From positions 1 to 64,000 of the IMG/VR virus record IMGVR_UViG_3300038468_000170: 64,000 nt of DNA; one strand, given 5' to 3'. Below are positions 1 through 32,468 of the stretch, piece after piece (the stretch's first letter is position 1; each line of letters begins with the position of its first letter). The DNA is from a virus. Under the pieces are notes generated by a model. The model saw nothing but the letters and a program-made list of their open reading frames with translations, was not told where the DNA came from and ran no database searches. Position numbers and translations under genes: made by a program.

Positions 1-791
1 TCCGTCTCTACCTCGCCAAGCTCGCGGAGGACGGCTTGAGCGTCTCGACCGTGAACCAGTTCCTCTCCGCCATCGGGGAGGCGCACGAGGCCGAGGGGCA
101 CCTCTCGCCGCGGTTCCACCCCGCCGTCCAGCAAGTCTGGCGCGGCATCCGTCGGACGAAGAAGGTCCGCGCCGTCGGGATGAAGCCGCTCCTCGCCGAG
201 CACATCAAGAAGATGCTCGCGGCAACGCCGGACATGTCAATGCTCAACGCCCGGGACCGCGCGATCGTCGCCTTCGGCTGGGCTTGCGCGATGCGGCGCC
301 ACGAGATCGTGGACACGCACGTCGAGCACGTCACCTTCCACGACAAGGGCTTCACGGTGCTCATCGAGCGCGCGAAGGAGGACCAGGAGGGCAACGGCTT
401 CGAGAAGATGGTGCTCTTCGGGAAAAACGAGGCGACCTGCCCGGTCCGCATCCTGAAGCGCTGGCTCGCCGTCTCGCGCATCACGACGGGTCCCATCTTC
501 CGACCGGTGAACCGCTGGGGCCGCGTCGTCCAGTACGGCGAGCAGGAGCGCCTCTGGCCGCAATACGTCGAGAAAGTCGTGAAGCGCCTGATGACGAACG
601 CGGGCATCGACCACAAGGGCTACGGCGCGCACTCGCTCCGCGCCGGGTTCATCACCCAGGCCGCGCTCAACGGACACACCGAGAGCGAAATCATGCGGCA
701 CTCGGGCCACTCGAACACCAAGATCGTGCAGCGGTACATCCGCATCGCGAACCTCGACAAGAAGAACGCCACGGAGGACATGGGCTTGTGA
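1..791 (+). CDS. Tyrosine recombinase (integrase), 5' end cut by window edge
   Basis: The frame is open from base 3, so the gene begins outside the window; the first in-window candidate start (TTG at 36) is probably internal. What remains is the end of the helical core-binding domain and a full catalytic domain. The family's catalytic residues are visible: Arg in AMRRHEI, a Lys region near ERAKEDQ, His-x-x-Arg in HSLRAGF, His in MRHSGHSN and the nucleophile Tyr in VQRYIR. Family role: site-specific integration or excision, or dimer resolution. The stop overlaps the GTG start of the next gene. A second, unrelated-looking recombinase is encoded at 51996-53087, so I cannot tell which one is the phage integrase. 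Confidence 0.9.
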   Translation, partial: RLYLAKLAEDGLSVSTVNQFLSAIGEAHEAEGHLSPRFHPAVQQVWRGIRRTKKVRAVGMKPLLAEHIKKMLAATPDMSMLNARDRAIVAFGWACAMRRHEIVDTHVEHVTFHDKGFTVLIERAKEDQEGNGFEKMVLFGKNEATCPVRILKRWLAVSRITTGPIFRPVNRWGRVVQYGEQERLWPQYVEKVVKRLMTNAGIDHKGYGAHSLRAGFITQAALNGHTESEIMRHSGHSNTKIVQRYIRIANLDKKNATEDMGL

Positions 792-1384
792 CTGGATCAC
801 CCGCACTCGCAGGGCGGCTGGATCCGCGCCTCCTCGCGGTTCACAACGCCTGCGAGCTGTGGGACTACTCCCTCTCTGGGAAGTACGACAAGGACGGCGT
901 GCGCCTCGTCGCCGGGCACTACTCCAGGCGAAAACCGTCGTCTCCGCAGTTTATGCCGCCGGGAGAGACGATCGTGACCGTGGCGAAGACGCGAGATGCG
1001 GTCTGGGGGTGGTGGCGACCTCACCCGGACAGCGGCCTTGTTGCGATGAACGGGCGTGACGGTTGGACGTGCAGCGTGTTCGCGAACCACGGAGAGATCC
1101 TTTCAAGCGAGCTCGTATTGGACGCGGAGCGCGCTCTCGCGGCGCTTGATGCCGCGAAGCTTACGGCGGGGCCGTGCGGTCCGGACGGCATGCTGACCTA
1201 CGTGTGGCGCTCGAAGGTGAAAAGCCCGAACCCAGGCTACTGCTACAAGGTCGCTGGCTGGACGAAGATCGGAACGTGCGCGCGTGGGTCGAAAGACTTG
1301 CTCTGGAAACCGCTGGAACTCGCGGGCATTGCCGCCTGTGGGGCATTGCGGAACGACCGGCTCCGATCGGAGCCCAGAAGGTGA
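788..1384 (+). CDS. GNAT-like phage protein, possibly Mom-related
   Basis: 198 aa from a GTG that overlaps the integrase stop (GTGA). The order of conserved pieces matches a phage family I recall as GNAT-fold: HNACELWDYS, GHYSRR, PQFMPPGE, VWGWWRP, then WTCSVFANHG, LSSELVLDAERALAAL, LTYVWRSK and PGYCYKVAGWTK. Related proteins include acetyltransferase-like enzymes and the Mu Mom DNA-modification protein. Assignment to the fold is fairly safe; a role in DNA modification is inference only. Frame 2 is open from 284, but the upstream part is a shadow of the integrase gene. Confidence 0.65.
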   Translation: MTGSPALAGRLDPRLLAVHNACELWDYSLSGKYDKDGVRLVAGHYSRRKPSSPQFMPPGETIVTVAKTRDAVWGWWRPHPDSGLVAMNGRDGWTCSVFANHGEILSSELVLDAERALAALDAAKLTAGPCGPDGMLTYVWRSKVKSPNPGYCYKVAGWTKIGTCARGSKDLLWKPLELAGIAACGALRNDRLRSEPRR

Positions 1385-1403
1385 GCGGATCTACATGGCA
1401 CCC

Positions 1404-1463
1404 CTGAAGCATCCCCGAACCAGAAGCCGTGCTCAGCGGAGCACGAGAGAGGTGGTTTCTTGA
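1404..1463 (+). repeat. GTGAAGC leader module, copy A
   Basis: First of ten ~60-bp modules. This copy begins CTGAAGC rather than GTGAAGC. It lies inside a 22-codon ORF (ATG at 1395, stop 1461-1463) whose peptide contains LKHPRTRSRAQRSTREVVS. The stop overlaps the TTG start of the next gene (TTGA), and the GAGAGGTGG stretch inside the module serves as its ribosome site. Confidence 0.85.
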
Positions 1464-1708
1464 ATCAGTCCAAACTACCCGAACAGGAGCGCACTGAGTT
1501 TGGCCTCGCGCTGAGTGCCTTCGTGCACAACAACAGGGCGCGCGCCGAGTCGCCGTCGGAAGTCGTTGGCTCACTCGTCGGAACTGCGGCAGCCGAGCAC
1601 ATCTATGCCGAACAGAGTCGAGAGGACTTCGTTCGCATCTGTGAGCATGCCTTCGATGAAACCAAAGACTTCTACGCGCGGCTCGTTGAAGCGGAGCATC
1701 GCCAGTGA
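1460..1708 (+). CDS. Hypothetical protein, 82 aa
   Basis: Starts at TTG 1460, overlapping the stop of leader module A, with GAGAGGTGG just upstream. The protein is acidic and probably all helical (SAFVHNNRARAES, AAAEHIYAEQ, FVRICEHAFDETKDFYARLV). I do not recognise a family. Its stop overlaps the GTG of the next gene, so it is translationally coupled to its neighbours in the left-end small-gene operon. Confidence 0.7.
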   Translation: MNQSKLPEQERTEFGLALSAFVHNNRARAESPSEVVGSLVGTAAAEHIYAEQSREDFVRICEHAFDETKDFYARLVEAEHRQ

Positions 1709-1965
1709 AACGGGGTTGCCGCCGTGTCCGTGAAATCCTGGCTCTCTGGGGCGAGCCGAGAACCATGGCGCGCGTCCAGGGAACTGTAGAGGAGTGCTTC
1801 CCGACTCGACACGGGTACAACGTCTGGATCGATCGCGAGGGGCGTCACGTAGCCGTTCGCTTCGCGCGGGACGTGGGATCGATCATCGAGGGCATCGCGT
1901 CGACGTGGACGGAAGCGATCCTCGCCGTCTGTGAGGCCAGGGCCACCCCCAGGAGTCGACCGTGA
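1705..1965 (+). CDS. Hypothetical protein, 86 aa
   Basis: GTG start overlaps the previous stop (GTGA), and its own stop overlaps the next GTG. Begins VKRGCRRVREILALW, faintly like the VK(H/Q) leader modules. An alternative start is the ATG at 1765, which would give a compact 66-aa protein (MARVQGTVEECF..., then GYNVWIDREGRHVAVRF and a final helix). The middle looks like a small beta sheet. No family recognised. Confidence 0.6.
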   Translation: MKRGCRRVREILALWGEPRTMARVQGTVEECFPTRHGYNVWIDREGRHVAVRFARDVGSIIEGIASTWTEAILAVCEARATPRSRP

Positions 1966-2114
1966 AGTGTTCGGCTACCGAAGACGGCCGACACCGATGG
2001 GAAACCGTGTGGCGGGTCGGTCCCGAGGTTAAGGAACGTTGTATTCGGTGCGATGAGGCGCGCATCCGGCGCTCCTCGGTGAGCGCGACCGAAAAGACTG
2101 CGGGGAAACCGTGA
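1962..2114 (+). CDS. Small zinc-ribbon-like protein, 50 aa
   Basis: GTG overlaps the preceding stop and the TGA overlaps the GTG of leader module B. The 50-residue product has Cys3, His11 and a Cys-x2-Cys pair (KERCIRCDEAR), the layout of a minimal zinc ribbon that binds one metal. It is one of at least eight small Cys-pair proteins in this genome. Function unknown. Confidence 0.55.
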   Translation: MKCSATEDGRHRWETVWRVGPEVKERCIRCDEARIRRSSVSATEKTAGKP

Positions 2115-2170
2115 AGCATCAGAAGGCGGCTGTCCGCGTGGAACGGAGACAGGAAGAGGTGATTCTTTGA
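2111..2170 (+). repeat. GTGAAGC leader module, copy B
   Basis: 20-codon leader ORF including stop, GTG 2111 to TGA 2168-2170: VKHQKAAVRVERRQEEVIL. Start overlaps the upstream stop (GTGA) and stop overlaps the downstream TTG start (TTGA). The module carries the GAAGAGGTG ribosome site. Confidence 0.85.
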
Positions 2171-2379
2171 CCAAGTTTATCATCGAGTATTGGCCCGAAG
2201 GTGCAACCGGCACGAGCGTTAAGCGCGACGGTACGATGTGGATCGTTGAGGCCGAGGACGCAACCGATGCGGTTCGGGTCGCGTTGCTGTCTGGCCTTCC
2301 CGTGGGTGCCAGGATCGAAAAAGCGTGGGCGCTCGCGAACAAGGTGAACGAACCAAAAGAGATGAGCTCCGCACCGTGA
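2167..2379 (+). CDS. Hypothetical protein, 70 aa
   Basis: TTG start overlapping the stop of leader module B. Reads MTKFIIEYWPEG, then MWIVEAEDATDAVRVALLSG and a C-terminal helix: a small alternating beta-alpha protein, about one domain. Ends in SSAP with the stop overlapping the GTG of leader module C. No family recognised. Confidence 0.7.
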   Translation: MTKFIIEYWPEGATGTSVKRDGTMWIVEAEDATDAVRVALLSGLPVGARIEKAWALANKVNEPKEMSSAP

Positions 2380-2435
2380 AGCAATCCCGAATCAGAAACC
2401 GTGCGGACCGGAGCACGAGAGAGGCGGTCTCTTGA
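2376..2435 (+). repeat. GTGAAGC leader module, copy C
   Basis: Leader ORF GTG 2376 to TGA 2433-2435: VKQSRIRNRADRSTREAVS. Nearly the same as copies A and I at DNA level. Start and stop overlap the flanking genes (GTGA and TTGA). Confidence 0.85.
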
Positions 2436-2590
2436 ACCAGCCATCGAACGGTTTGGTCGTCACACGGCACGTAAGCGAAGCGCGCGACTACGAGCTACTC
2501 GATGAGCTAGAGGCGCTAGCAGGAAGCTCTTGGTGGGATATGCTCACCAACAGTCTCGGGATTCGCGAAAAACCTGCGGTGCAGCCGTGA
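2432..2590 (+). CDS. Hypothetical protein, 52 aa
   Basis: A short gene supported by its place between two leader modules: TTG start overlaps the stop of copy C, and the stop at 2588-2590 overlaps the GTG of copy D. The product starts MNQPSNGLVVTRHV, contains an acidic helix (ARDYELLDELEALAG) and ends EKPAVQP. The AVQP ending recurs at 5264 (KTAVQP) and nearly at 3239 (TKVQP), so the conserved block extends into the 3' end of the upstream gene. Function unknown. Confidence 0.6.
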   Translation: MNQPSNGLVVTRHVSEARDYELLDELEALAGSSWWDMLTNSLGIREKPAVQP

Positions 2591-2646
2591 AGCAATCGAA
2601 CGACCCCGACACGAAGGAACCCGTCACGGCGGAGGCGAGTCCCCCA
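2587..2646 (+). repeat. GTGAAGC leader module, copy D (fused)
   Basis: Same GTGAAGC start overlapping the upstream stop, but the frame stays open past the end of the module, so the leader forms the N-terminus of the downstream protein (VKQSNDPDTKEPVTAEASPP). Confidence 0.8.
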
Positions 2647-2838
2647 CCTAGACAGCTTCGACACGACACCGGTCCTTACGGCGGACGCCCATGTTCGCGG
2701 TGTGGGCTCGTCTACTCGCCGAAGGTGGCCTATGTGCCGTGTTTCGTGGAGGGAGACACGCTCGTGACCTGGCTCGCGCGACAGTCCGACGAAGTGGTAG
2801 CGCTGACAGGTCTCCGGCGCCGCGAAAGGACCCCATGA
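2587..2838 (+). CDS. Leader-fused small Cys-rich protein, 83 aa
   Basis: GTG at 2587 overlaps the preceding stop; an in-frame ATG exists further upstream (2530) but lies inside the previous gene. The first ~22 residues are the leader module ending PVTAEASPPP, shared with the proteins at 4634 and 5261. The body has Cys-x2-Cys (CSRCGLVYSP) and a third Cys after a short gap, a possible partial zinc site. The stop overlaps the ATG of the next gene. Confidence 0.65.
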   Translation: MKQSNDPDTKEPVTAEASPPPRQLRHDTGPYGGRPCSRCGLVYSPKVAYVPCFVEGDTLVTWLARQSDEVVALTGLRRRERTP

Positions 2839-3239
2839 GCCACGTGAAGCGTCAGAAAACCGCTATTCGCGCGAAGCGGGTCACGCGAATGCCAGGCCCT
2901 CCACCTAGGAAGACTGCCGCGTACCGTCTCTCGCCTGGAACGTATAAGTACCAAAAATGCCTCCCCGCGGAAGAGGATGTGCGGCGTCGCCCTGAAGTCG
3001 AGCGCGGGCGGGCCAAGTCTGGCTCGACCCATTTGAAGCGTGCACGTTGCGTTGTTTGCCGGCGGCCGAACGACACGACGTTCGGGGAGACGCTCCGTGC
3101 GTATTGGGGATTCTGTCGTGCATGCGCCCGCAGTTACGACCGGGCTCGCGACAAGGACGCTACGACGTTGGCGCTCATCTCCTGGGCAGCGAACCGTGCT
3201 TGGGTGAGCGCGCAGAAAAAGACCAAGGTGCAACCGTGA
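2835..3239 (+). CDS. Leader-fused zinc-finger protein, 134 aa
   Basis: ATG overlaps the upstream stop (ATGA). After MSH the fused leader module reads VKRQKTAIRAKRV and ends in PPPR. The very basic N-terminal half is followed by two Cys-x2-Cys pairs (RCVVCRRP and FCRACARSYDRA) spaced like a C4 zinc finger, then a helix. Ends TKVQP. Likely a small nucleic-acid-binding protein; that is inference from charge and the finger. Confidence 0.65.
   Translation: MSHVKRQKTAIRAKRVTRMPGPPPRKTAAYRLSPGTYKYQKCLPAEEDVRRRPEVERGRAKSGSTHLKRARCVVCRRPNDTTFGETLRAYWGFCRACARSYDRARDKDATTLALISWAANRAWVSAQKKTKVQP
2844..2903 (+). repeat. GTGAAGC leader module, copy E (fused)
   Basis: GTGAAGC sits three codons inside the gene that starts at 2835. 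The frame is open through the module, as in copies D, H and J. It diverges more than the other copies in its second half. Confidence 0.65.
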
Positions 3240-3295
3240 AGCAGTGAGTAACGGCTGTCTGGACGGAGCGGGTCACGTAAGGAGGCAATCTCGTG
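3236..3295 (+). repeat. GTGAAGC leader module, copy F (leader truncated)
   Basis: GTGAAGC overlaps the upstream stop as usual, but the leader frame ends after three codons (V-K-Q-stop). The right half has turned into a strong ribosome site, AAGGAGG, ahead of the RNA ligase GTG at 3293. Here coupling through a full leader peptide seems to have been replaced by direct initiation. Confidence 0.7.
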
Positions 3296-4162
3296 AGCTA
3301 CATGCACATCAACAATCTGTACAAGGACCAGCGCGTGCTCGCCTTCCGGGAGTGCTACGCGCTGGAGAAAATCCACGGGACGAGCGCACACGTGCGGTGG
3401 TCCGGCTCGCAGCTTCACTTCTTTTCCGGCGGAGAGAAGCACGAGCGGTTCTGCACGCTGTTCGACGCCGCGAAGCTAAGCGAGGCGTTCCTCGCAATCG
3501 GCCACGATCCCGTCGTCGTCTACGGCGAGGCGTACGGAGGCAAACAGCAGGGGCAATCTCACCGATACGGCAAGGAGTTGCGGTTCGTGGCGTTCGAGGT
3601 GCAGGTGGGAGACTCCTGGCTCGATGTACCGAACGCCGCTGACTTCGTCTCGAAACTCGGTTTGGAGTTCGTCCATTTTGTGAAAGTCCCGACGGACCTA
3701 GCTGCGCTCGATGCGGAGCGGGACGCACCTTCAGAGCAGGCCCGCCGCAACGGCGTGGAAGGCGACCATCCGCGCGAGGGAGTGGTGCTACGCCCGATCT
3801 TCGAGGTGCGAACGAACAACGGCGATCGCATCATCGCGAAGCACAAGCGCGACGATGAGCGAGAAACCAAGACGCCGCGTCAGGTCGTGGATCCGTCAAA
3901 ACTCCAGGTGCTCCAAGCGGCCGAGGCAATCGCCGAGGAGTGGGTCACTCCGACGCGGCTCGCTCACGTCCTGGACAAGCTCGGAGATGTGAGCATCGAA
4001 CAGACCCGCGACGTCATCGCGGCCATGACGGAGGACGTGCTCCGCGAAGGTGCCGGGGAGCTGACCGATAGCCGCGAGGCGCGCGCCGCCATCGGGAAGA
4101 AAACCGCCGGACTGTTCAAGGCGCGGCTCCGGGCGGCGCTAGGTGAGCAGAGGGCGAAGTAA
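3293..4162 (+). CDS. RNA ligase, Rnl2-like nucleotidyltransferase family
   Basis: 289 aa, GTG start 6 nt after AAGGAGG. Joins RNA ends through a ligase-adenylate intermediate in this family. Visible motifs: motif I EKIHGT with the adenylated Lys26; motif III-type VVVYGEAYGG (74-83) and RFVAFEVQVG (97-106); motif IV REGVVLRPIFEV (161-172); motif V IIAKHKRDD (180-188). The C-terminal ~90 residues are helical. It is the only clear enzyme in the leader-module array. No polynucleotide kinase partner or tRNA gene is visible in the window. In phages such ligases often repair host nuclease damage to tRNA; that role here is inference. Confidence 0.9.
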   Translation: MSYMHINNLYKDQRVLAFRECYALEKIHGTSAHVRWSGSQLHFFSGGEKHERFCTLFDAAKLSEAFLAIGHDPVVVYGEAYGGKQQGQSHRYGKELRFVAFEVQVGDSWLDVPNAADFVSKLGLEFVHFVKVPTDLAALDAERDAPSEQARRNGVEGDHPREGVVLRPIFEVRTNNGDRIIAKHKRDDERETKTPRQVVDPSKLQVLQAAEAIAEEWVTPTRLAHVLDKLGDVSIEQTRDVIAAMTEDVLREGAGELTDSREARAAIGKKTAGLFKARLRAALGEQRAK

Positions 4163-4175
4163 CCGCGTGGCAACC

Positions 4176-4217
4176 GTGAAGCATCCCCGAGACACTGTCC
4201 GTACGGAGCGGAGCTAG
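4176..4217 (+). repeat. GTGAAGC leader module, copy G (early stop)
   Basis: VKHPRDTVRTERS then TAG at 4215-4217. The rest of the 60-bp module continues to the TTGA at 4232, but the leader stops early. An in-frame GTG at 4167 could extend it upstream. The full module runs 4176-4235. Confidence 0.75.
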
Positions 4218-4231
4218 AAAGAGGTGATTCG

Positions 4232-4624
4232 TTGACCAAGGGTTTCTGGTCCCGATTGCTGGACCACTTCCGGCCAGCACAGCGCGTTCCTGCTCCGCCG
4301 CGCATTGGTCGTGTGGTCATACATTCGATCCGATGTGTCGGGTGTGGGAAGCCGCTTGAACACGGGCAGCTTGTCGTGACGGTAGACGGAGAGCTATCGA
4401 CTGGAGAACCGTTTCCCTTCACAGGCCATGCGACGTGCATGGTGCTTGTGCGCAAGTCAGACGGGACAGTCGAGGGCACGCCGCACAAGCACAGCATCTT
4501 GCTCACTGAATCTGAGTGGGAGCGCTGGAAGGCAACCGAGGCTCGTGGCGAGTCACCTGGCGGAGAGGTTCGGGTCATCGGCGTAAACGAGCACGCGCTT
4601 CCTCGATTGGTGAGCGGGCGTTGA
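4232..4624 (+). CDS. Hypothetical zinc-finger-like protein, 130 aa
   Basis: TTG start preceded by AAAGAGGTG inside module G. The core has Cys-x2-Cys (IRCVGCGKPL) followed after ~35 residues by His and Cys (GHATCMVL), a treble-clef or ribbon-like metal site inside a small beta domain. The N-terminus is basic and aromatic (MTKGFWSRLLDHF), starting MTK like the protein at 2167. No named family recognised. Confidence 0.65.
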   Translation: MTKGFWSRLLDHFRPAQRVPAPPRIGRVVIHSIRCVGCGKPLEHGQLVVTVDGELSTGEPFPFTGHATCMVLVRKSDGTVEGTPHKHSILLTESEWERWKATEARGESPGGEVRVIGVNEHALPRLVSGR

Positions 4625-4633
4625 AAGGACCAA

Positions 4634-4942
4634 ATGAACCCTGTGAAGCAGCACGACACCGCTACTCCCGCGGAACCTATCACGGCGGAAGCTATTCCTC
4701 TACCTAGCCACGAACGCGAGACTGATCGAGCGGAGCGAATCGCGAAAGAGTCTGGCGTCGAGAAATCCGTAGCTCTGGACATCGGCTACTTGCGTGATCT
4801 GGAAGCTCGAATCGTGGATGCCGCCCACCGCCATCCGGAGCTGCGGGACTTTCCAGTGTTCAATGCGTTGCTGGAGACGTTCCTCGATGCCCTGGAGAAT
4901 CAAGGTGGCGCAGAGCCACAGAAGACGGAGCCCGCACCGTGA
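4634..4942 (+). CDS. Leader-fused hypothetical protein, 102 aa
   Basis: ATG at 4634 after AAAGGAC. MNP is followed by the fused leader module H, VKQHDTATPAEPITAEAIPL. The remainder is mostly helical and acidic (AERIAKESGVEKS, YLRDLEARIVDAA, ALLETFLDALEN), so possibly a small oligomerising protein. The stop overlaps the GTG of leader module I. Confidence 0.65.
   Translation: MNPVKQHDTATPAEPITAEAIPLPSHERETDRAERIAKESGVEKSVALDIGYLRDLEARIVDAAHRHPELRDFPVFNALLETFLDALENQGGAEPQKTEPAP
4643..4702 (+). repeat. GTGAAGC leader module, copy H (fused)
   Basis: Open through its whole length, so it is part of the protein starting at 4634. Its PITAEA segment aligns with PVTAEA of copy D and PVTEEA of copy J. 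Confidence 0.75.
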
Positions 4943-4998
4943 AGCATCCCCGAATCAGAAGCCGTGCAGACCGGAGCACGAGAGAGGTGAGTCGTTGA
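4939..4998 (+). repeat. GTGAAGC leader module, copy I
   Basis: Complete leader: VKHPRIRSRADRSTREVSR, GTG 4939 to TGA 4996-4998. Start overlaps the upstream stop and stop overlaps the TTG of the HTH gene. Best matches are copies A and C, whose core CCGGAGCACGAGAGAGG is close to identical. Confidence 0.85.
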
Positions 4999-5264
4999 CC
5001 TACGATGAAGCGGTCGGTCTGGCGATCTACACGAACCGCAAGATCCGCGGCGTCTCGCAGCCGGAGCTTGCCGAAGCTCTCGGGCTTACCGCCTCTGCGG
5101 TCTCGCGCCTGGAAGGCGGAGTCACGAAGGTGACGGTCGTGCATCTTCGCAAGATTTCCAGAAAACTAGCGGTGGCATCGTCGGTCATCGTTGAGGATGC
5201 CGAGAGATACTTCGGCAGAGCCGAAGGTGGCGCCATCAAAAGAAAGACAGCGGTGCAGCCGTGA
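4995..5264 (+). CDS. XRE/Cro-type helix-turn-helix regulator
   Basis: 89 aa, TTG start coupled to leader module I. A Cro/C1-type HTH spans about residues 10-60: VSQPELAEALGLTASAVSRLE is the recognition unit, followed by VTVVHLRKISRKLAV. Such small regulators bind operator DNA as dimers and in phages often control early or lysogeny genes. Being within the leader array suggests it controls this operon. The C-terminus ends KTAVQP, with the stop overlapping module J. Confidence 0.85.
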   Translation: MTYDEAVGLAIYTNRKIRGVSQPELAEALGLTASAVSRLEGGVTKVTVVHLRKISRKLAVASSVIVEDAERYFGRAEGGAIKRKTAVQP

Positions 5265-5320
5265 AGCATCCCCGAGCCGCAGTCCGTGTGCAGCCCGTCA
5301 CCGAGGAGGCGAGTCCTCCA
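5261..5320 (+). repeat. GTGAAGC leader module, copy J (fused)
   Basis: Begins VKHPR like the stand-alone leaders A, G and I, but continues QPVTEEASPP like the fused copies D and H. It is the intermediate that shows both types are one family. Confidence 0.8.
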
Positions 5321-5503
5321 CGTAACGAATTGATGCTCGCTGTGCAGCGGAAGGACCTTGAAGAGCTTCGGAGGAAGCATGGGCAGGACTGCGAAAAGCT
5401 GGACGCACACGTGCGATACCGCCTTGGACATCCGAGCGATTGGTGCTCGTGCGGAGCCGACAACCACAACGCGCGGCTCGACAGGATTCTAGGTGGCGCG
5501 TGA
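5261..5503 (+). CDS. Leader-fused hypothetical protein, 80 aa
   Basis: GTG overlaps the stop of the HTH gene. N-terminal leader module (VKHPRAAVRVQPVTEEASPP), then a helical segment (KDLEELRRKHGQDCEKL) and WCSCGADNH, a possible Cys/His metal site. It is the last gene of the leader-module array. Function unknown. Confidence 0.65.
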   Translation: MKHPRAAVRVQPVTEEASPPRNELMLAVQRKDLEELRRKHGQDCEKLDAHVRYRLGHPSDWCSCGADNHNARLDRILGGA

Positions 5504-5518
5504 CGCGCCCGAAAAATC

Positions 5519-5734
5519 ATGAAAATCCACCACTCGACCGGCTACGTCCACATCGATCTCTCGGCGGCCGAAGCACGTGTGCTTCTCGAGGAGCTCTCGA
5601 ATGTCCGCGGTGGGGCGCGCCTGCCGAAGCTCCGGCAGGTGTGCAAGGGGCTCGAGGCGCTGCTCGTGCTTACGGAAGTGCCTCCGGTGAAGCGTGGACG
5701 GCCGCCAAAGACGAACGGGAGCGGACTCAACTAG
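5519..5734 (+). CDS. Hypothetical protein, 71 aa
   Basis: ATG at 5519. Compact helical protein (AAEARVLLEELSNVRGG, LPKLRQVCKGLEALLVL) ending in a basic AT-hook-like stretch, KRGRPPKT. The RGRPPK core is the classic minor-groove-binding AT-hook, so a small DNA-binding protein is plausible. No leader module precedes it. Confidence 0.7.
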   Translation: MKIHHSTGYVHIDLSAAEARVLLEELSNVRGGARLPKLRQVCKGLEALLVLTEVPPVKRGRPPKTNGSGLN

Positions 5735-5735
5735 A

Positions 5736-5957
5736 ATGTCGCACGAAAACGGCAGGGGTGCTCGCTTGCGGGATGAGGCGCAGCGGGCGTGCGACGAGAT
5801 TTTCGACCATAATCCTAGGGAGGAAGCGCGCGTCGTCGTCGTACTAATCGGAGAAGGAACCGACATGGGCCTCTATTCCGTTGGCGGCAGAAAGGTCGAT
5901 CGGAAGGGGATCCTTCGAGCGCTCAAAAAGACGCTGGCACATCTGGAAGGGAACTAG
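5736..5957 (+). CDS. Hypothetical protein, 73 aa
   Basis: ATG at 5736, two bases after the previous stop. Helix then a hydrophobic strand (EEARVVVVLIGEG), a short loop and a C-terminal helix (GILRALKKTLAHLE). Resembles many small alpha/beta phage proteins; no family recognised. The frame is open upstream to 5694 but overlaps the previous gene. Confidence 0.65.
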   Translation: MSHENGRGARLRDEAQRACDEIFDHNPREEARVVVVLIGEGTDMGLYSVGGRKVDRKGILRALKKTLAHLEGN

Positions 5958-5959
5958 TC

Positions 5960-6682
5960 ATGCGCAGCACGTTCATCTTGGCTCTGATGTTGGTCGGTTG
6001 CAGTGGGCAGCCGTTCACTGCTTCGATGATTGGCTCCGTGTCCGACGGCGGCGATCAGGTCGAGACCGATGGCTCGGGCGGATCTGCTTCGACAGAGACG
6101 GGCGGTGCTGCTGAGAGTGGCGGGCGCGCCGGCACCGGCGGACACGTTGGCGTCGGCTCGGGCGGCCATTTCGAGACCGGTGGGAGCTCGTCGACTGGAG
6201 GGCGAAGCACTACCGGAGGATCAACGTCGACCGGAGGCGTGAACAGTTCATCAGGCGGCTCAAGTGGCGCGACTGGATCCACGGGAGGTTCGTTTGCTAC
6301 AGGCGGCGCCTCGAGCTCGACCGGTGGCACCCCGAGTGATGCATGCGTGCTTGTTACGCACGACAACGGTATCGGACAGACGTGGCAGGACTGCGTGCCA
6401 CTCGACACCTACAACGCGACGCAGGCAACCGCAGCGTGCGAAGCGTACAAGGCGGCTCACGTGGCATCGTGTTCTAGTGCGCGATGCGTGCTCGCCCTCG
6501 GTTCGTGTATCAGCATCGGCAGTAACAGTGTCGAATACACTGCTGACTGCGGAGGCGGCGCCATTCTCTGGACCTACGCGCCAGGAACAGCAAACCCGAC
6601 CGGGGGCGGCCATGTCGTGAACATAACTACCGCCAGTAGTCCCGATGGCTGTCCGACGTCACAAGATCCGTCATGGGATTGA
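5960..6682 (+). CDS. Secreted lipoprotein with TGG-rich linker
   Basis: 240 aa. Signal peptide MRSTFILALMLVGC with lipobox LVGC, so the mature protein should start at Cys14 and be lipid-anchored. Residues ~35-125 are low complexity, built of TGG, SGG and STGG units. The last ~110 residues form a Cys-rich domain with about six Cys (ACVLVTHD, QDCVPLD, SCSSARCVLALGSC). The linker style is frequent in myxobacterial surface lipoproteins, so the gene may be host-derived. Carried by a phage it could alter the lysogen's surface, for example by blocking superinfection; that is speculation. Confidence 0.8.
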   Translation: MRSTFILALMLVGCSGQPFTASMIGSVSDGGDQVETDGSGGSASTETGGAAESGGRAGTGGHVGVGSGGHFETGGSSSTGGRSTTGGSTSTGGVNSSSGGSSGATGSTGGSFATGGASSSTGGTPSDACVLVTHDNGIGQTWQDCVPLDTYNATQATAACEAYKAAHVASCSSARCVLALGSCISIGSNSVEYTADCGGGAILWTYAPGTANPTGGGHVVNITTASSPDGCPTSQDPSWD

Positions 6683-6694
6683 GGAGGTGCAAAA

Positions 6695-6907
6695 ATGGCC
6701 CGCGCAAGAATCACGGAGATGAAAGAGGGACGAGTCATCTTCGCGAAAATCTCGCCTCCCATGAACGGAAGCGACCTCGTGCTTGAGGTGCACCAATACG
6801 AACGTGAGAGGCCGCTCATCCGACAGGTGCTATTCCTCGTCATCTCGAGGGAAGAGTTCTCGGCACTCGCGAAGGACATGCGCGAGTTCGAGACGGAAAT
6901 ACAGTAG
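6695..6907 (+). CDS. Hypothetical protein, 70 aa
   Basis: ATG preceded by GAGGTGC. Beta-strand-rich start (ARITEMKEGRVIFAKI, DLVLEVHQYERERP), then hydrophobic VLFLVISREEF and an acidic C-terminal helix. Single small domain; no family recognised. Confidence 0.7.
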   Translation: MARARITEMKEGRVIFAKISPPMNGSDLVLEVHQYERERPLIRQVLFLVISREEFSALAKDMREFETEIQ

Positions 6908-6944
6908 GGCGGTGCATGACGCGGTCAGGCGGCATCGAGGAAAG

Positions 6945-7187
6945 ATGAGACCACGCCCCGTGAAGGTTTATGACATTTCTCCGCGCGTGTTTGAAAAGAG
7001 GTTCGCTGATTTGATTCGCGGCTTGTCGTTTCTGTCTGGAGTGCCGATGCCGCGTTACGGAGGACGGTTTGGTCATTGGGGCAATCGTTCTCCAGATCCG
7101 TGGGCGTCATTGCGTCGATCTGCTCGAATATTTTGCAATCAAGACGAGGTTCATGCTCACGGGCCACCGAAAAATCAGTCCAACTGA
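6945..7187 (+). CDS. Hypothetical protein, 80 aa
   Basis: ATG at 6945 after GAGGAAAG. Product starts MRPRPVKVYDISPRVFEKRF and is rich in Arg and aromatic residues; the second half looks disordered. The frame stays open upstream to 6783 but overlaps the previous gene. Coding potential is moderate, and I recognise nothing in it. Confidence 0.45.
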   Translation: MRPRPVKVYDISPRVFEKRFADLIRGLSFLSGVPMPRYGGRFGHWGNRSPDPWASLRRSARIFCNQDEVHAHGPPKNQSN

Positions 7188-7215
7188 ACGCCTAGCCTCG
7201 TGGTAGCCTCGCGGC

Positions 7216-7515
7216 ATGCGACCCCTACTCAGTGCCATCTCCCTGGTTCTTCTCGTCTCGTGCACGGTCACTTCCGGAGGCTCGTGCCAAAATCCGGTGC
7301 ATGACGCCTGCTCCGCGAAGGCGCAGGAGGTCTCCGGCGCGCTCGCGAAGATCGCGACCGAGCAGCACCAGACTACCGAGGAGATGACGAACGAATTCCT
7401 TGGTGCCTGTGAGGGGCAGCTCCAAGCCGATCTCGATCAGATACTCCCTGCGCTCGAAACCATCGTGGATGCCGGCGTCCAGACGGATGCAGGCGGGAAG
7501 GACGGTTCGCCGTGA
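7216..7515 (+). CDS. Small lipoprotein, 99 aa
   Basis: Signal peptide MRPLLSAISLVLLVSC with lipobox LVSC (Cys16). The mature part has three more Cys and is helical and acidic (AQEVSGALAKIATEQHQTTEEM). It lies directly upstream of, and overlaps (GTGA), the papain-like peptidase gene. A spanin- or inhibitor-like role cannot be judged. Confidence 0.75.
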   Translation: MRPLLSAISLVLLVSCTVTSGGSCQNPVHDACSAKAQEVSGALAKIATEQHQTTEEMTNEFLGACEGQLQADLDQILPALETIVDAGVQTDAGGKDGSP

Positions 7516-8501
7516 TCAAAGAAGTCTTCGCTCCGCATCTCAACCGCAACGTGAAGTTCGGCAGGCGGCATCCCGTCGCTTTCGGCCCGCATCTCAAGCT
7601 CAAGAACTACTTGAAGGCGGCGCTTCCGGTAGCGCCTCCGACGTACGACTACACGGCGAAGGCCGCGCCGATCCTGTCCGACATCATGGGCAACGACCGC
7701 TACGGGGACTGCGTCTTTGCATGCGGATACCATCTCGTCGGCGTCGAGACCGCGAACGCGGGCAATCCATTCCACGCGAAGCTCGCTCAGGTGGAAGCCG
7801 ATTACACGGCGACGACCGGCTTCAACCCGAACGATCCGTCGACGGACAACGGTGCGAACATCCAAGACGTTCTGAACTACTGGTCGAGTCACGGCTTCGC
7901 GAACGGAACGAAGATCCTGGGCTACCTCGCGGTCGACGCGACGAACGTTGCCGAGGTCATGTCGTGTGTCTACTTGTTCGAGAACCTCGTCCTCGGCATG
8001 TCGCTTCCGGATGCGTGGATCTCTCCGTTCCCGAGCGGTAACGGTTTCACATGGGATCGCGCGGGAAGCCCCGACCAATCGAATGGTCACTGTGTCGGCG
8101 CCTTCGGCTACGGTCAGAAGGGCGTCACCATTGCCACGTGGGGCCTCCTCGGCACGCTCACGTATCCGGCGCTTGCCGAGTACGCAGTCTCTTCCGGTAG
8201 CGGCGAGCTCTGGGTCGTCATCACCCCGGACCAGCTCGCGAAGGGTCAGCAGAAGGCTCCGAACGGGGTTGCATGGGCGAACCTCATCCTCGACTTCGAT
8301 TCGATCGGCGGCCACGTGCCGCTTCCCGCGCCTCCGCCCCCGCCACCTCCGCTTCCTCCCGCAAGTGGCGGTGTGTCGCTCGCTCAAGCCGAGGCTGCGG
8401 TCAAGGCTGCGTTCGCGCACCAGCCGATCATCATGTCGAACAGCGCCGCCGTCTCGGCCGCCATGAAGGCGCTCGAGGGTCTCGCCGGCTGGCCGAGGTG
8501 A
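7512..8501 (+). CDS. Papain-like cysteine peptidase domain protein
   Basis: 329 aa, GTG overlapping the previous stop. Candidate catalytic Cys67 in NDRYGDCVFACGYH, His193 in QSNGHCVGAFGYG, and TW at 209-210 in place of the usual Asn-x-Trp region. This layout is seen in phage and bacterial C1-like peptidases. After residue ~270 comes a polyproline linker (PAPPPPPPPLPP), then a helical tail (SLAQAEAAVKAAF). No signal peptide or membrane segment. Possibly a virion or lysis-associated enzyme acting on host envelope or virion precursors; the substrate is unknown. Confidence 0.7.
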   Translation: MIKEVFAPHLNRNVKFGRRHPVAFGPHLKLKNYLKAALPVAPPTYDYTAKAAPILSDIMGNDRYGDCVFACGYHLVGVETANAGNPFHAKLAQVEADYTATTGFNPNDPSTDNGANIQDVLNYWSSHGFANGTKILGYLAVDATNVAEVMSCVYLFENLVLGMSLPDAWISPFPSGNGFTWDRAGSPDQSNGHCVGAFGYGQKGVTIATWGLLGTLTYPALAEYAVSSGSGELWVVITPDQLAKGQQKAPNGVAWANLILDFDSIGGHVPLPAPPPPPPPLPPASGGVSLAQAEAAVKAAFAHQPIIMSNSAAVSAAMKALEGLAGWPR

Positions 8502-26481: not shown

Positions 26482-27693
26482 ATGGGCTACCTGGCAGGTC
26501 ACGGTCGATACGGAAGGGAGACGTACCCCACCTCCGGCGGAAACGGAGGCGGAGGCGCGGCGATCGTTCCTCTCACTCGCCAGAGGTTCATCGACGGAGG
26601 CACGTCGCAGCCCGGACTGACAGGATCAGCGGCAGAGCCTTTCAAAACCATCGCGCAGTTCGTTGCGTCTCGTCCCAACACTTCGGCACTCGATTCGCAA
26701 GCGAACTACGTCGGCTGGGTCATGCCGGCGATCAACAACTACGTCGAGAACGTGAGTCTGCCGCCGTACAAATCTACCGAACTGCGAGCCGACTCAAGCG
26801 GTGCGGGCATCACCGGAAACGTTACCTGGAACAACGTTGCTGGATTGAACACCCCGATCGCCGCTATCTGTACGCTTCACAACATGAGCGTGTCAGGAGT
26901 GGTCACCGTCACGGACGACGCCGGAGCTCCGCCTTCCATCTTTATCATCAGCGGGGACGAATTGGGGGATGCGAGCGCCATTATCAATGAGTTCGTTTCG
27001 AACACAACCACCAAACTCGGCGCGGTCGAGTTCTTCAACGTTTCCGTGAATGACATCGACACGGGTACCGATATTCCGGCTCGTGCTGCGGTCGTAGGCG
27101 TTCACACGCAATTCAGTGGCGCCATATCTGGATCCTCGTTCGAGGCCATAGATTGTATTTTGAACGTCAGCACCATCTCAGTGAATGCTATCGGACAAGC
27201 ATCGTTCATCGGTTGCGCCTTCATTCCAGGATCCAACCCGGCACTCACTTGTCTAGCCGGGTCTTTGTTCGATGGTCCCTCGTGGCGAAGCTTTTTGGAG
27301 GCCGGCGGTACGCGCACGGCTGGTACTGTCGTGCTCGTCGTCGGGGGATACAGCGGCGGCGAGATTCGTGGCGCCGATTTGACATCCGCTAGCACAAGCG
27401 TGTCTCTCAACGGAGGAGTAGGGTCTGATTTTACCGGCTCGAATTCCGGAAACCACTACGTGTCCTCGAGCGTGACTCCAACTAGCGTCACGCTCTTGAC
27501 CAGCGGAGCGCTCCCCGGAGACACGATCCTCATCACCAGAACGAGTTCCGAAGCAAGCAATCTGGCCGTCAAGAACAGTGTCGGCGCCGTGATCGCGACG
27601 ATTCCGACTGGAAGTCGAGGATTCGTGCTTGCCCAGTTCGATGGTGGCCTGAGCGAGTGGATCTTCGCGGAGGGCGGCGCGCTCGCTGCTTGA
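26482..27693 (+). CDS. Tagged spike protein with beta-helix-like body, 403 aa
   Basis: Begins MGYLAGHGRYGRETYP (the tag), then a Gly-rich hinge (SGGNGGGG). The body is built of short Val/Ile/Ser/Thr strands with repeated turns (NMSVSGVVTVTDDAG, GAVEFFNVSVNDIDTGTD, ISVNAIGQASFIGCAF), typical of right-handed beta-helix or prism spikes. No membrane segment. Likely host-receptor-binding; that is inference. Confidence 0.75.
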   Translation: MGYLAGHGRYGRETYPTSGGNGGGGAAIVPLTRQRFIDGGTSQPGLTGSAAEPFKTIAQFVASRPNTSALDSQANYVGWVMPAINNYVENVSLPPYKSTELRADSSGAGITGNVTWNNVAGLNTPIAAICTLHNMSVSGVVTVTDDAGAPPSIFIISGDELGDASAIINEFVSNTTTKLGAVEFFNVSVNDIDTGTDIPARAAVVGVHTQFSGAISGSSFEAIDCILNVSTISVNAIGQASFIGCAFIPGSNPALTCLAGSLFDGPSWRSFLEAGGTRTAGTVVLVVGGYSGGEIRGADLTSASTSVSLNGGVGSDFTGSNSGNHYVSSSVTPTSVTLLTSGALPGDTILITRTSSEASNLAVKNSVGAVIATIPTGSRGFVLAQFDGGLSEWIFAEGGALAA

Positions 27694-27700
27694 CAGAATC

Positions 27701-28324
27701 ATGTCGTACATCATCGGCAGAGGCAGGAACGCTCGTGAGACCTATCCGGATCGGCCATCATCGTCGTCCGGGGCGATCATACGTGTCGGCTACGACGCGA
27801 TCGTCGAAGAATTCGATTTGGCAGAACCTGGCTCTCCCACGTACTTACCGAGAAACGTTGCGCTTGATCCGGTTCAGGTGACGTTCCCAGCGTTCGCCCT
27901 CGGCAATACGCTCGAGGTGGACTTCAAACTGAACGGCATCTGGTCGTCGGAAACGCCCGGACCTTCAACCGTTCAAACTCAGATCGCAGTGAGTCTCGAT
28001 GGAGGAGTAACTTTCTACACGCTCTCGCCATCGACGGCTCTGGCAGAAGTGGACGTCAATGCGAACAACGTGGTCCTTTTGCGGAGTCTCGACGCCATCC
28101 GAATCGTCGATCCGATGCCGGTCGTCGTAAACGGATTTCCCGGTACGATCCCTGTCACGTCTCCGCCCATAGTTCGCGTTTTTTACACTTCCGACGAAGG
28201 AAGCGTGCTCCTGAACGGCAGCGTCGACGAACTCACACTCCCGGGCGCAATTCTGAAATGCAGCGAACTCGCTGCGGCATCTGTCTTTCAGGGGCCTCTT
28301 GGTCAGCTCGCAATTACCACATGA
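27701..28324 (+). CDS. Tagged beta-rich spike protein, 207 aa
   Basis: N-terminal tag MSYIIGRGRNARETYP is the best consensus copy. Body of beta strands (QVTFPAFALGNTLEVDF, STVQTQIAVSLDGGVTFYTL, PPIVRVFYTSDEGSVLL), suggesting one jelly-roll or sandwich head without stalk. The VSLDGGVTFYTLSPS pattern recurs in 46247 (VSIDGGATWKHLSPS), so the heads of these two proteins are also related. Confidence 0.75.
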   Translation: MSYIIGRGRNARETYPDRPSSSSGAIIRVGYDAIVEEFDLAEPGSPTYLPRNVALDPVQVTFPAFALGNTLEVDFKLNGIWSSETPGPSTVQTQIAVSLDGGVTFYTLSPSTALAEVDVNANNVVLLRSLDAIRIVDPMPVVVNGFPGTIPVTSPPIVRVFYTSDEGSVLLNGSVDELTLPGAILKCSELAAASVFQGPLGQLAITT

Positions 28325-28599
28325 ACGACCTTTACCTGCTCGCCGCGCTCATCGGTGCGACGCTCATCGTCGTACGGGGAACGATCTTTTCGTCTGTTCG
28401 ACGAATTTGGCCGGCGCTTCTCGAGTGCAGCCAGTGTACCGGCGCATGGATCGGGGCAGCAGCGGGAGCAATCGGAGTCGTGCCCGCGGGACACGGTCGA
28501 GCTCTCGATTCGTTCATCGTGGGCGCAGCGACGAGTTTCTTGTCCATGCTGGCCGACGCGGTGCTCTTGAAGCTGCTCGGTGACCCAGACGAATCGTAA
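28321..28599 (+). CDS. Small membrane protein, DUF1360-like, 92 aa
   Basis: ATG 28321 overlapping the previous stop. Three hydrophobic stretches (YLLAALIGATLIVV, WIGAAAGAIGVVPAG, FLSMLADAVLLKLL) and the motif LECSQCTGAWIG after the first. The Cys-x2-Cys followed by Trp at a membrane boundary resembles small DUF1360-type proteins of phages and bacteria. Role unknown; a holin-type function is one option. Confidence 0.65.
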   Translation: MNDLYLLAALIGATLIVVRGTIFSSVRRIWPALLECSQCTGAWIGAAAGAIGVVPAGHGRALDSFIVGAATSFLSMLADAVLLKLLGDPDES

Positions 28600-28626
28600 T
28601 TTTTCCAAAGCCCTGACCGGTCGGGC

Positions 28627-29313
28627 TCAAAAAGAAGGAGCGGTATCGTGTGCGGACTGTTCGTCACCCATCGGAAAATTGACGCAAGCGAATTCGCCGA
28701 AGAGTTGACGCGCAGCGTTGTCGTACGCACGAGCGGCCTCTACTTCGGTTTTGAAACGCCCGATGTGGATCAACTTGAGATTGACACGAATACGTGCTTT
28801 CCAAGAACTACTTGCCGAATCTCTGGTCACCCCCTTGTACTTCGACGTGCCGCACGATTTTTTTCTGGAGTTGCGCGCGTTTTGAGCGTCGGTTGCCTTG
28901 CGCAAGTTTTCACGACGATTGTCGAGACCGTCACCGTTCTTGTGATCGACTTCCTCAGAAAAACTCGCGTTGAAGAGCCATCGGTGAAGTCTGATTGTCA
29001 CGCCTTGCTCTTCTCGAACCGCGTACCTTCGTCCTGTTTTCGGGTGCTTGTAGAGATACCAGAGGTGCCGCATCACTCTCTTGGCGTCTCGAACATCGAT
29101 CTTCGTGAAGGTGCCTTGCGTGAGCGGCACGAAAAACACGCCCGACTCGATGTACGGCCTAGCTCGCGTCGCTTTCGCTCTAGTCGCTCCCGCAACACCC
29201 CCGGCACGGCAACCGTTCTGCACAGCTGTTTGAATGCACGTCGTCGCTCCGCACGTCTTGCGCCTTCGTTTACGAGGTTTGCCGCAGACACCACACAGTT
29301 GTACGCCAGCCAT
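28627..29313 (-). CDS. HNH homing endonuclease with AP2 DNA-binding domain
   Basis: 228 aa, ATG 29313 with GGAAGGAG upstream. N-terminal Cys-rich segment (LCGVCGKPRKRRRKTC), then the HNH_3 core (EVDHKNGDGLDNRRENLRKA) and an AP2/ERF-like domain (SKYKGVTRD, WKARIRVN, GRFKTEVEAARAYDNAA). Cuts DNA at a long site to spread itself. It is the only gene on this strand between 12 and 49 kb and sits between spike genes, as expected for a mobile intruder. The target may be an unoccupied allele of this intergenic region. Confidence 0.92.
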   Translation of the reverse strand: MAGVQLCGVCGKPRKRRRKTCGATTCIQTAVQNGCRAGGVAGATRAKATRARPYIESGVFFVPLTQGTFTKIDVRDAKRVMRHLWYLYKHPKTGRRYAVREEQGVTIRLHRWLFNASFSEEVDHKNGDGLDNRRENLRKATDAQNARNSRKKSCGTSKYKGVTRDSASSSWKARIRVNLKLIHIGRFKTEVEAARAYDNAARQLFGEFACVNFPMGDEQSAHDTAPSF

Positions 29314-29396
29314 TGTTCGCCTCTCCTTCCGAGGTTGAACCGGGCCCCGGTCGGTGAGACGACGCGGGGCCATTTACCAAAGGAGAAGACCGTATC

Positions 29397-29630
29397 ATGC
29401 GCCGCAAATTACGCAATTTGAAGAATAAGTCTGGCGACAGCCAAAATGGCGCCCCGCGCCAGCTCATCGACGAAGCGCTGTACCACGAGCGTCGTCAAGC
29501 CAGCCTGGGCGGGAATCCGCCTCGCTTCGACAGCGAATATTCGGGGTGGAGTCACGCGAGTCGTCCACGCGATCAAGCGATCTCTCTGCGCAGATCACAA
29601 GGGCCGTCAGGACCGAGCGGACCGAGATGA
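29397..29630 (+). CDS. Hypothetical protein, 77 aa, ending in a collagen-like stub
   Basis: ATG after AAAGGAGAAG. Basic N-terminus (MRRKLRNLKNKSGD), then IDEALYHERRQASLGG. The last residues are GPSGPSGPR, the start of the same Gly-x-y pattern found in the neighbouring stalks, followed at once by a stop. May be a degraded fibre gene or a small assembly partner. Ends four bases before the next tagged spike gene. Confidence 0.55.
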   Translation: MRRKLRNLKNKSGDSQNGAPRQLIDEALYHERRQASLGGNPPRFDSEYSGWSHASRPRDQAISLRRSQGPSGPSGPR

Positions 29631-29633
29631 TGA

Positions 29634-31235
29634 ATGCCTTACGTCGTAGGCAGAGGTCGATACGCTCGTGAGACCTACCCAGAGCCCCGTGGTCCTGGTG
29701 GCAGTGGCGTAGGCCCCACCGGGCCACAAGGGCCTACCGGCCCGGTGAGCACTACACCGGGGCCCACCGGACCGACGGGTCCGAGCGGAGGAACGCTTGC
29801 GTTTGCGTCACCCCAGGCGGCGCAGGCATTCGACTTCTCGAGCCAAACCGACTTCACGGTCGCGAGCGTCGGCGTCGTCAACGACCTCTACCTTTTGCAG
29901 AAGACTCCGCCCGTCGCGCCGACGAGCGATGGCCTGAACGTCATCACTCCCGCGGGGCCGCCGGGAGCGCGTCTATTTCGCATCTACGTCCCGAACACCC
30001 CCGCGTCCTATCAAGCGTCGTGGGCCGTCAACTCGGCGTCTGGAGACGACCGAAACGACGGCACTCCAGCGCATCCGCTCCAGACCGGCACCGAGCTCGC
30101 ACGGCGCTTCAATAGCGCGAACTTCCAAATCACCGACGTCGACGTGGCGATCACCGGCACAATCAGCGGGGTTCCCCTAGACCGCATCTCGTGCGCAGGA
30201 GGAACTCTCGTCAAGATTCATGGAAACGTGACGAGCTCGGCGCCTCGAGCCATCGCAACCGTGACGCCCGAGAGCCCGAGCACGAACGTGCGCGGACATA
30301 TCACCGACGCGGGCGGAGCGTTTGCGCAGGGCCAGCGCCTTCGGCTCGTCACGGGAACTCACACGGGCTACGTGGCCTATTGCCTTGCAGGGACAACCGC
30401 GACGGACGCGGTCGTGTCGCAGTGGTCGCTGCTCGGCGATTTGCACGGCACCTTCAACACGGTACCGTCGCAGGCGAATCCCACCGCGGGAGACCAATAC
30501 GTTACCGACACGTTGACGTCGACGCTGTCGCTCGGACCGATCTCAGCCGAGGTGACGAACTCTGGACGGCTTCTCTTCGAGGATCTCATCTTCAGTCAGG
30601 ATCTCTCGGGCGGCTTCAAAAACTACCAGTACGGATCGACCCGGCAAAACCAGTCGACACTCGGAGGCGTAGTGTTCGCCGCGTGCAAATGGGATAGCAG
30701 CGCAGCAGCAGGGCTTGCGACGAGCTCTGGCGGCATGTTCCTCCAGTGCCTCTTTCAAGCGCAGTTCGGACTCTTCTTCGGATCAGCAGGGGTTGGACGA
30801 AACTGCGTTTGGAACGGAGGCATTTCGGGAGGATTTGCCGGGCTCAACGTGTTCGGGGGCGGATCGTACATTCAGCTCTCGAACGCGAACTATCTCGACC
30901 AGTCCGGAATCGTGCAGACCTCAGGAGGATTCGTCGAATCGAACGGCGCAACCATCACCGGAAACCAAGGACCGGGCGGAACGACGTGCTGGGAGGTCGA
31001 TCCCGGATGCTTCGTCTACTCTCACAATAACGCGCGCTTCTGGGGTCCGGCGGGTGCGACGAATTACGGGCTCGCGATCCGCGTCTTCACGAACGGCGCC
31101 TACTCTTACGTGAACGTCCCAACGCTTGCCGGTTCGACTGTCGCTGACACCGAAGTCTCTGGCACCACGAAAGCGTACGCGGCATTGCCGTTTTTCAATA
31201 CCACAACCCCAGGCAACATTTCGAACCTCACATGA
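29634..31235 (+). CDS. Tagged spike with short collagen-like stalk and beta-helix head, 533 aa
   Basis: MPYVVGRGRYARETYP tag, hinge EPRGPGG, two short Gly-x-y blocks ([11 protein letters not shown] and [10 protein letters not shown]), then a ~470-residue beta-helix-like head (VDVAITGTISGVPLDRISC, GRLLFEDLIFSQDLSGGF, GGMFLQCLFQAQFGLFFGS). Resembles tailspike architecture. The head includes Asp-rich loops but no catalytic signature I can name. The largest of the tagged spikes. Confidence 0.8.
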   Translation: MPYVVGRGRYARETYPEPRGPGGSGVGPTGPQGPTGPVSTTPGPTGPTGPSGGTLAFASPQAAQAFDFSSQTDFTVASVGVVNDLYLLQKTPPVAPTSDGLNVITPAGPPGARLFRIYVPNTPASYQASWAVNSASGDDRNDGTPAHPLQTGTELARRFNSANFQITDVDVAITGTISGVPLDRISCAGGTLVKIHGNVTSSAPRAIATVTPESPSTNVRGHITDAGGAFAQGQRLRLVTGTHTGYVAYCLAGTTATDAVVSQWSLLGDLHGTFNTVPSQANPTAGDQYVTDTLTSTLSLGPISAEVTNSGRLLFEDLIFSQDLSGGFKNYQYGSTRQNQSTLGGVVFAACKWDSSAAAGLATSSGGMFLQCLFQAQFGLFFGSAGVGRNCVWNGGISGGFAGLNVFGGGSYIQLSNANYLDQSGIVQTSGGFVESNGATITGNQGPGGTTCWEVDPGCFVYSHNNARFWGPAGATNYGLAIRVFTNGAYSYVNVPTLAGSTVADTEVSGTTKAYAALPFFNTTTPGNISNLT

Positions 31236-31708
31236 TGCGCCCCGGCCTTCCTCTCTTCTATCGACTGATTCCGAGCTCGCTCGAGAACGAGCTACGGATC
31301 CGCTTCGACTCCGTCGCTCTGGCGGGATCATTCCGAACGCGCGTCACGGGGGCAACAACGCTCGGCGATCGAGAGCTCGACGTGTGGGGCCCGGTCGTCG
31401 GAGAAGGGTCGGACGCGCTTCTCGTCGATCGAAGCTACGGCTTGCTTCCGAGGACCGGTGTGCACCTCTGCCTCGAAGACTCGACGGAAGCGATCGTGAA
31501 CTGGTGCTACACAGGGCCCTTCTCTGTAAACGAGAAAGATTTCCCACTCACCGTGCCGGTGCCGGGGCGCTGGGACACGATGCGCGAGGCGGCCGTGCGT
31601 TACCTACGCGGGAACGGCGCCCTCACGGGGGTGACCGACGACGAGATTCGCGCGAGCCTCAACGCACTCGGCTACCAATGGGGAACGTTCACGCTTTCAA
31701 AGGAGTGA
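31232..31708 (+). CDS. Hypothetical protein, 158 aa
   Basis: ATGA overlap with the spike gene. Alpha/beta protein: FYRLIPSSLENELRIRFDS, ELDVWGPVVGEGSDALLVD, VHLCLEDSTEAIVNWCYTG, and a C-terminal helix pair. Its coupling to a spike gene suggests a chaperone or assembly factor for it. The same arrangement, small gene after fibre gene, repeats at 33116 and 37303. No family recognised. Confidence 0.7.
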   Translation: MMRPGLPLFYRLIPSSLENELRIRFDSVALAGSFRTRVTGATTLGDRELDVWGPVVGEGSDALLVDRSYGLLPRTGVHLCLEDSTEAIVNWCYTGPFSVNEKDFPLTVPVPGRWDTMREAAVRYLRGNGALTGVTDDEIRASLNALGYQWGTFTLSKE

Positions 31709-31718
31709 GGAGTGACCC

Positions 31719-32462: not shown

Positions 32463-32468
32463 CGCGTC

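Follow-up and report, generated by a model that had tools for sequence, protein, structure and literature searches.

Short repeated elements at phage gene joints

Short repeated elements have been described at the starts and joints of phage genes. Start-associated sequences (SAS) and extended start-associated sequences (ESAS) occur in the cluster K mycobacteriophages (PMC3203893) and in the Microbacterium cluster EF phages (PMC7302621). The SAS is 13 bp long and lies just upstream of the start, with the consensus GGGATAGGAGCCC in cluster K (PMC3203893) and GGGAAAGGACCCC in cluster EF (PMC7302621). In T4-type phages, elements consisting of an early promoter and a stem-loop (PeSLs; Arbiol 2010 and Comeau 2014, as cited in PMC4503421) have been proposed to let small genes shuffle through homologous recombination. 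At mosaic joints, short conserved boundary sequences have been discussed as a substrate for homologous exchange; most mosaic joints show no detectable shared sequence, and for this reason illegitimate recombination followed by selection is usually invoked (PMC3029335). Here we describe a module of about 60 nt that occurs in ten copies, all on the plus strand and all at gene junctions, near the beginning of a 64,000-nt window (the whole stretch of DNA analyzed). The window comprises bases 1-64000 of the 96,019-bp IMG/VR viral record IMGVR_UViG_3300038468_000170, and we have labelled the phage G000. We consider it probable that the module joins the members of an array of small-gene cassettes as their common seam, at which genes could recombine and which brings its own translation initiation signals.

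The module resembles the SAS in being repeated in one orientation, in carrying a Shine-Dalgarno (SD) sequence, and in standing at starts of small genes that are non-structural and belong to different families; some of these genes have a relative without the element. The likeness to the cluster K elements had been pointed out in the first-pass annotation, and it is fair as an analogy. However, the module is about 60 bp long, begins on a start/stop overlap, does not match the SAS consensus, has a tail within the gene before it, forms a continuous frame with the next gene in about half of its copies, and is common to phages with few other shared proteins. Like the PeSLs, as these are presented in the citing paper, it is a short shared element for which a part in small-gene shuffling is proposed, but neither a promoter nor a stem-loop was detected in it. 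Like the boundary sequences, it is a shared sequence at joints whose flanking genes differ; unlike them, it forms a single family at consecutive junctions and also provides the start, the stop, and the SD. The module belongs, as a variant, to the known kind of short sequences that phage gene joints have in common, and falls outside both SAS and PeSL.

Organization of the module array

The ten copies reported in the first-pass annotation can be aligned over 62 nt without a gap, and this alignment is absent in shuffled sequences. For the 27 nt at the 3' end of the module, four matches with at most three mismatches were found, compared with none when the window was shuffled 100 times. In positions 1391-5330 there are 13 occurrences of TGAAGC, against 1.5 expected and a maximum of 7 in 1000 simulation runs. 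A search of the rest of the window with nhmmer gave no additional strong copy. The consensus is GTGAAGCAtCcccgA...GAaAGAGG...TTGA, about 60 nt in length. A match was accepted as a module only if TGAAGC was present, and one match without it was set aside; the invariance of TGAAGC is thus partly by construction.

Six of the ten copies (2111, 2376, 2587, 3236, 4939, and 5261) overlap the stop codon of the previous gene by means of GTGA, as had been described for most copies. On the basis of reading frames, that is, of predicted translation, we classed six copies as stand-alone, with a leader and an SD ahead of a TTG or GTG start codon, and four as fused in frame with the next gene. The stand-alone copy at 1404-1465 begins with CTG, in a frame entered from an ATG at 1395, and encodes the leader LKHPRTRSRAQRSTREVVS, with the SD GAGAGAGG and the TTG start of the next gene at 1460. 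The copies at 2111-2172, 2376-2437, and 4939-5000 lie on the stops of genes 1962-2114, 2167-2379, and 4634-4942, and lead to TTG starts at 2167, 2432, and 4995. These four contain the complete leader of 19 codons ending on TTGA that had been expected. The leader is cut short in the other two. At 3236-3297, on the stop of gene 2835-3239, a TGA at codon 4 ends the leader after three codons, and the SD AAGGAGG precedes a GTG start at 3293, not the TTG that had been held typical of stand-alone copies. At 4176-4237, which begins 13 nt after the TAA of the previous gene, the leader has a TAG at codon 14, followed by the SD AGAAAGAGG and a TTG start at 4232.

Among the fused copies, the one at 2587-2648 encodes VKQSNDPDTKEPVTAEASPPP as the head of gene 2587-2838 and lies on the stop of gene 2432-2590, and the one at 5261-5322 lies on the stop of gene 4995-5264 and forms the head of gene 5261-5503. 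The copies at 2844-2905 and 4643-4704 belong to genes 2835-3239 and 4634-4942, which start at upstream in-frame ATGs at 2835 and 4634, a correction to the first-pass annotation.

The sequence preceding the module, which the first-pass annotation had passed over, is also shared. Most genes before a module encode a C-terminal tail of the type KTxVQP, KxAVQP, ERAP, or similar, immediately followed by the stop. A related subtype of the module with an ATG start occurs outside the window. The first 220 bp of the record (window 1-220) recur at its end (95800-96019) with 97% identity, so that the genome is probably circular; given that this overlap is only 97% identical and includes amino acid differences, the record was probably pieced together from more than one strain. 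Upstream of the integrase gene and across the circular junction, six reading frames begin with ATGAAGCA (record positions 94029, 94244, 94522, 95115, 95315, and 95588), where 0.02 would be expected in that 1.6-kb stretch. Bridging alleles in contigs G006 (GTGAAGCACGGATGTACGG) and G009 link this subtype to the main module.

Shared heads, unrelated bodies, and proposed exchange at the seam

When all array proteins were compared with one another by blastp, the matches began at residue 1 and most ended at residues 17-28, and the bodies of the proteins were unrelated. The module alleles are mosaic (pairwise homoplasy index, PHI, p=0.001), with distances in the middle and right segments uncorrelated (r=0.01), compared with 0.56 for odd and even sites.

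One natural comparison involves the tyrosine integrase. In G000, G004 (L120), L121, and L122 the common homology spans about 1000 bp with 86-94% identity, from the start of the module to the stop of the integrase gene, and the neighbouring genes differ on both flanks. Outside this block identity falls to 15-42% per 20-40-nt window, with one pair reaching 60% over the 20 nt directly upstream. Between L120 and L121, identity is 98% over the initial 60 nt of the module and 20-40% just outside. For the helix-turn-helix (HTH) gene at 4995-5264, the match between G000 and G001 runs through the gene and its tail to GTGAAGCA and diverges right after, and the relative in L003/L005 diverges exactly after GTGAAGCA. 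The relative in L006 has a bare GTGA overlap in place of the module, and its homology begins at the gene start. Finally, the integrase gene of G000 is flanked by two paralogues of gene X (phrog_24928; 788-1384 and record 94522-95118) that are 82% identical with different N-termini; the copy at record 94522-95118 bears a module head and the copy at 788-1384 does not. Gene X has 36 relatives in other viral contigs.

The first-pass annotation had offered a recombination seam for swapping small genes as one possible role, and the shared heads on unrelated bodies, the mosaic alleles, and the integrase blocks running from seam to seam in four phages support this well. Seam exchange would account for all three. 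At each seam the last 15-20 nt or so of the previous gene form the common tail, which often includes an SD-like AAGGTG or GAAAGGA. This is followed by a stop/start overlap, (G/A)TGA, with the invariant TGAAGCA, and then by a head of about 55 nt that either ends in an SD and the next start (stand-alone) or continues in frame into the next body (fused). In the mechanism we propose, since tail and head are alike at every such junction, seams in one phage or in two co-infecting phages could undergo homologous recombination and so insert, delete, or replace a single gene, and the new joint would automatically be in the correct frame and have its stop, start, and ribosome site. Judging from these sequence comparisons, exchange may really occur at the seams by homologous recombination, and translation of the downstream genes may be coupled.

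The main weakness of seam exchange as an explanation is that breakpoints at gene edges can also be explained by illegitimate recombination with selection for intact genes. Several observations weigh on the same side. The L123 integrase, at 72% identity, has no module, and its homology likewise stops near the gene edges. The junctions at 1705 and 1962, inside the array, have only a bare GTGA overlap. No RecA, RecT, or Erf gene was detected in G000, where recombination would thus depend on the host or on a co-infecting phage; G006 and G009 encode RecT, and G005 has a RecA-like gene. The relatives are all metagenome assemblies, and for that reason an assembly chimera is possible.

Distribution among phage contigs

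Pattern scans and a DNA profile identified 47 copies of the module at E<0.5, of which 40 (17 stand-alone and 23 fused) have E<1e-4, in nine IMG/VR contigs. Additional copies were found in two more contigs, L121 and L122. The module-bearing contigs have few other proteins in common with G000. Across them the guanine-plus-cytosine (GC) content of the genome ranges from 0.40 to 0.69, compared with 0.585-0.639 for the arrays. G003 (L067 8740-10251) contains a block of about 1.2 kb with 59-62% GC and three modules in a contig of 40% GC, and the open reading frames at either end of the block span the GC boundary. We interpret this block as recently transferred; an assembly chimera is the less likely explanation.

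In bacterial genomes (GTDB), five matches to the pattern were found, none of which was confirmed by the module profile, and named phages and plasmids gave no convincing module match. Contigs L008 and L009 were rejected as carriers, with only a chance match to the SD end.

Translation initiation and the encoded peptide

The SD segment of the module (positions 42-49) holds 1.54 bits of information in stand-alone copies versus 0.53 bits in fused copies (p=0.0005), whereas the middle of the module is equally informative in both (0.89 versus 0.88 bits). An SD of at least 4 nt is present in 16 of the 17 stand-alone copies. The stop/start coupling and internal ribosome site suggested earlier are supported by the layout, and the SD is conserved only in copies where a start follows.

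Such a pattern would also be expected of an element like the SAS, that is, a start-associated translational or regulatory element, perhaps acting through a phage factor, with any seam role a by-product. This alternative survives best, and we consider it unlikely. The module is always found at starts, in the coding orientation, and with small non-structural genes, and there are the precedents of the cluster K and EF phages. However, about half of the copies are fused in frame, where SD conservation is lost, the alleles are mosaic, and one module serves phages that have few other genes in common.

The first-pass annotation had also emphasized the basic peptide encoded by the leader. A functional leader peptide, or fused heads that serve as protein targeting tags comparable to the T4 capsid targeting sequences, seems to us highly improbable. 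The frame is ungapped across the copies, but pN/pS (nonsynonymous relative to synonymous change) of the stand-alone leaders is 0.94, identical to the 0.94 of a column-shuffle null, the other frames behave alike, and no reading frame is distinguished by a scarcity of stops. Two of the six stand-alone leaders in the window are truncated, as described above, and stand-alone cassettes would receive no tag. With leader pN/pS at the null and high SD information confined to stand-alone copies, selection evidently maintains the ribosome site in copies that precede a start and does not maintain the peptide. For the fused heads pN/pS is 0.81 versus a null of 0.93 (p=0.053), which hints that these heads are translated. 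The codon tests on leaders and heads, with 17-23 sequences that are not independent, have limited power. In several fused genes no other start codon lies close to where the head ends, so that production of the body requires translation of the head.

Promoters, structure, and the integrase

A mobile element of the PeSL type, or a set of DNA operators for the HTH protein, could be imagined because intergenic elements recur beside small genes that are shuffled and an HTH gene lies within the array. We give these possibilities very little credence. No promoter matching the sigma-70 consensus, the only one scanned for, and no coding-strand terminator was found in positions 700-6000, and an Rfam scan of positions 1-8000 matched no family. 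Folding of eight modules with RNA parameters gave z-scores of -1.38 to +1.76, not beyond those of shuffled sequences, and revealed no structure common to the copies. The motif occurs in a single orientation and is not a palindrome. Two possible hairpins, GGAGG...CCTCC among the fused copies and CGTGCTC...GAGCACG in part of the stand-alone ones, were rejected, being neither general nor stronger than in shuffles.

An integron-like array, in which the modules would be sites for the adjacent tyrosine recombinase, can practically be dismissed: integron cassettes are likewise single promoterless small genes with elements of about 60 bp between them, and a tyrosine recombinase does lie within the array, but this integrase scores only 19.9 bits for integron integrase (TIGR02249) against a cut-off of 265, on which score the integron was rejected, its best matches are XerC/D-like and phage integrases and not IntI-type, folding (RNA parameters) lent no support and gave no attC-like fold, no relative of the integrase was detected by tblastn next to the G001, G002, G003, G005, or G006 arrays in the contig stretches searched, and the elements overlap coding sequence and are internally mosaic.

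Genes of the array and neighbouring regions

All genes of the array are on the plus strand. The tyrosine integrase gene (Phage_integrase) straddles the circular junction, with its 3' part at 1-791 and its 5' part, including an ATG-start module, at record 95588-95799. A cytosine DNA methyltransferase-like gene follows a nearly identical integrase in both L068 (7742-8449) and L121 (10942-11856); at the DNA level the two methyltransferase-like genes show no detectable similarity. Gene X (788-1384) is joined to the integrase gene by a GTGA overlap without a module.

The module at 1404 is followed by a small gene of unassigned function (1460-1708), to which the genes at 1705-1965 and 1962-2114 are added in turn through the bare overlaps noted above. 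The latter ends in the tail EKTAGKP, and the small genes at 2167-2379 and 2432-2590 end in KEMSSAP and KPAVQP. Genes 2587-2838 and 2835-3239 both have module heads, the second also having the tail KKTKVQP. The sequence GAAAGGACCCC at 2824-2838, before the ATG at 2835, resembles the cluster EF SAS consensus and may be merely a good SD. The next gene (3293-4162) encodes an Rnl2-like RNA ligase and is 69% identical in DNA to a gene of the 485-kb uncultured phage LR745208.1, which has no module there; LR745208 was rejected as a module carrier, the match being to the RNA ligase alone. Another small gene of unassigned function (4232-4624) is followed by one with a module head and the tail KTEPAP (4634-4942), by the HTH_3 regulator (4995-5264, tail KRKTAVQP), and by the small gene at 5261-5503, the last with a module head.

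Beyond the array, lipoprotein-like proteins with long TGG-S/T-rich stretches are encoded at window 5960-6682 and at L002 11158-13626. We take such stretches to be of a kind associated with myxobacteria, a possible hint as to the host. Window 26482-37306 encodes repeated collagen-like GPTGPTGP proteins, and several genes there have a common N-terminus of the type MxYxxGRGRxARETYP and are probably tail fibre paralogues.

Implications for small-gene exchange

The array bears on the question of how phages acquire and exchange their many small accessory genes. Here the shared joint is visible, up to ten or more times per genome, across phages with little else in common. The two demands made on a joint, homology for exchange and a working start and stop, can be considered separately. 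We suggest, more tentatively than for the seam itself, that the common seam could be an exchange standard, by which small genes fitted with the tail and head would pass, one at a time or several together, between phages that differ widely in GC content, in an integron-like capture without a site-specific recombinase. If the seam reading is true, the module would give a means of searching for captured small genes, and a recombination substrate open to direct test.

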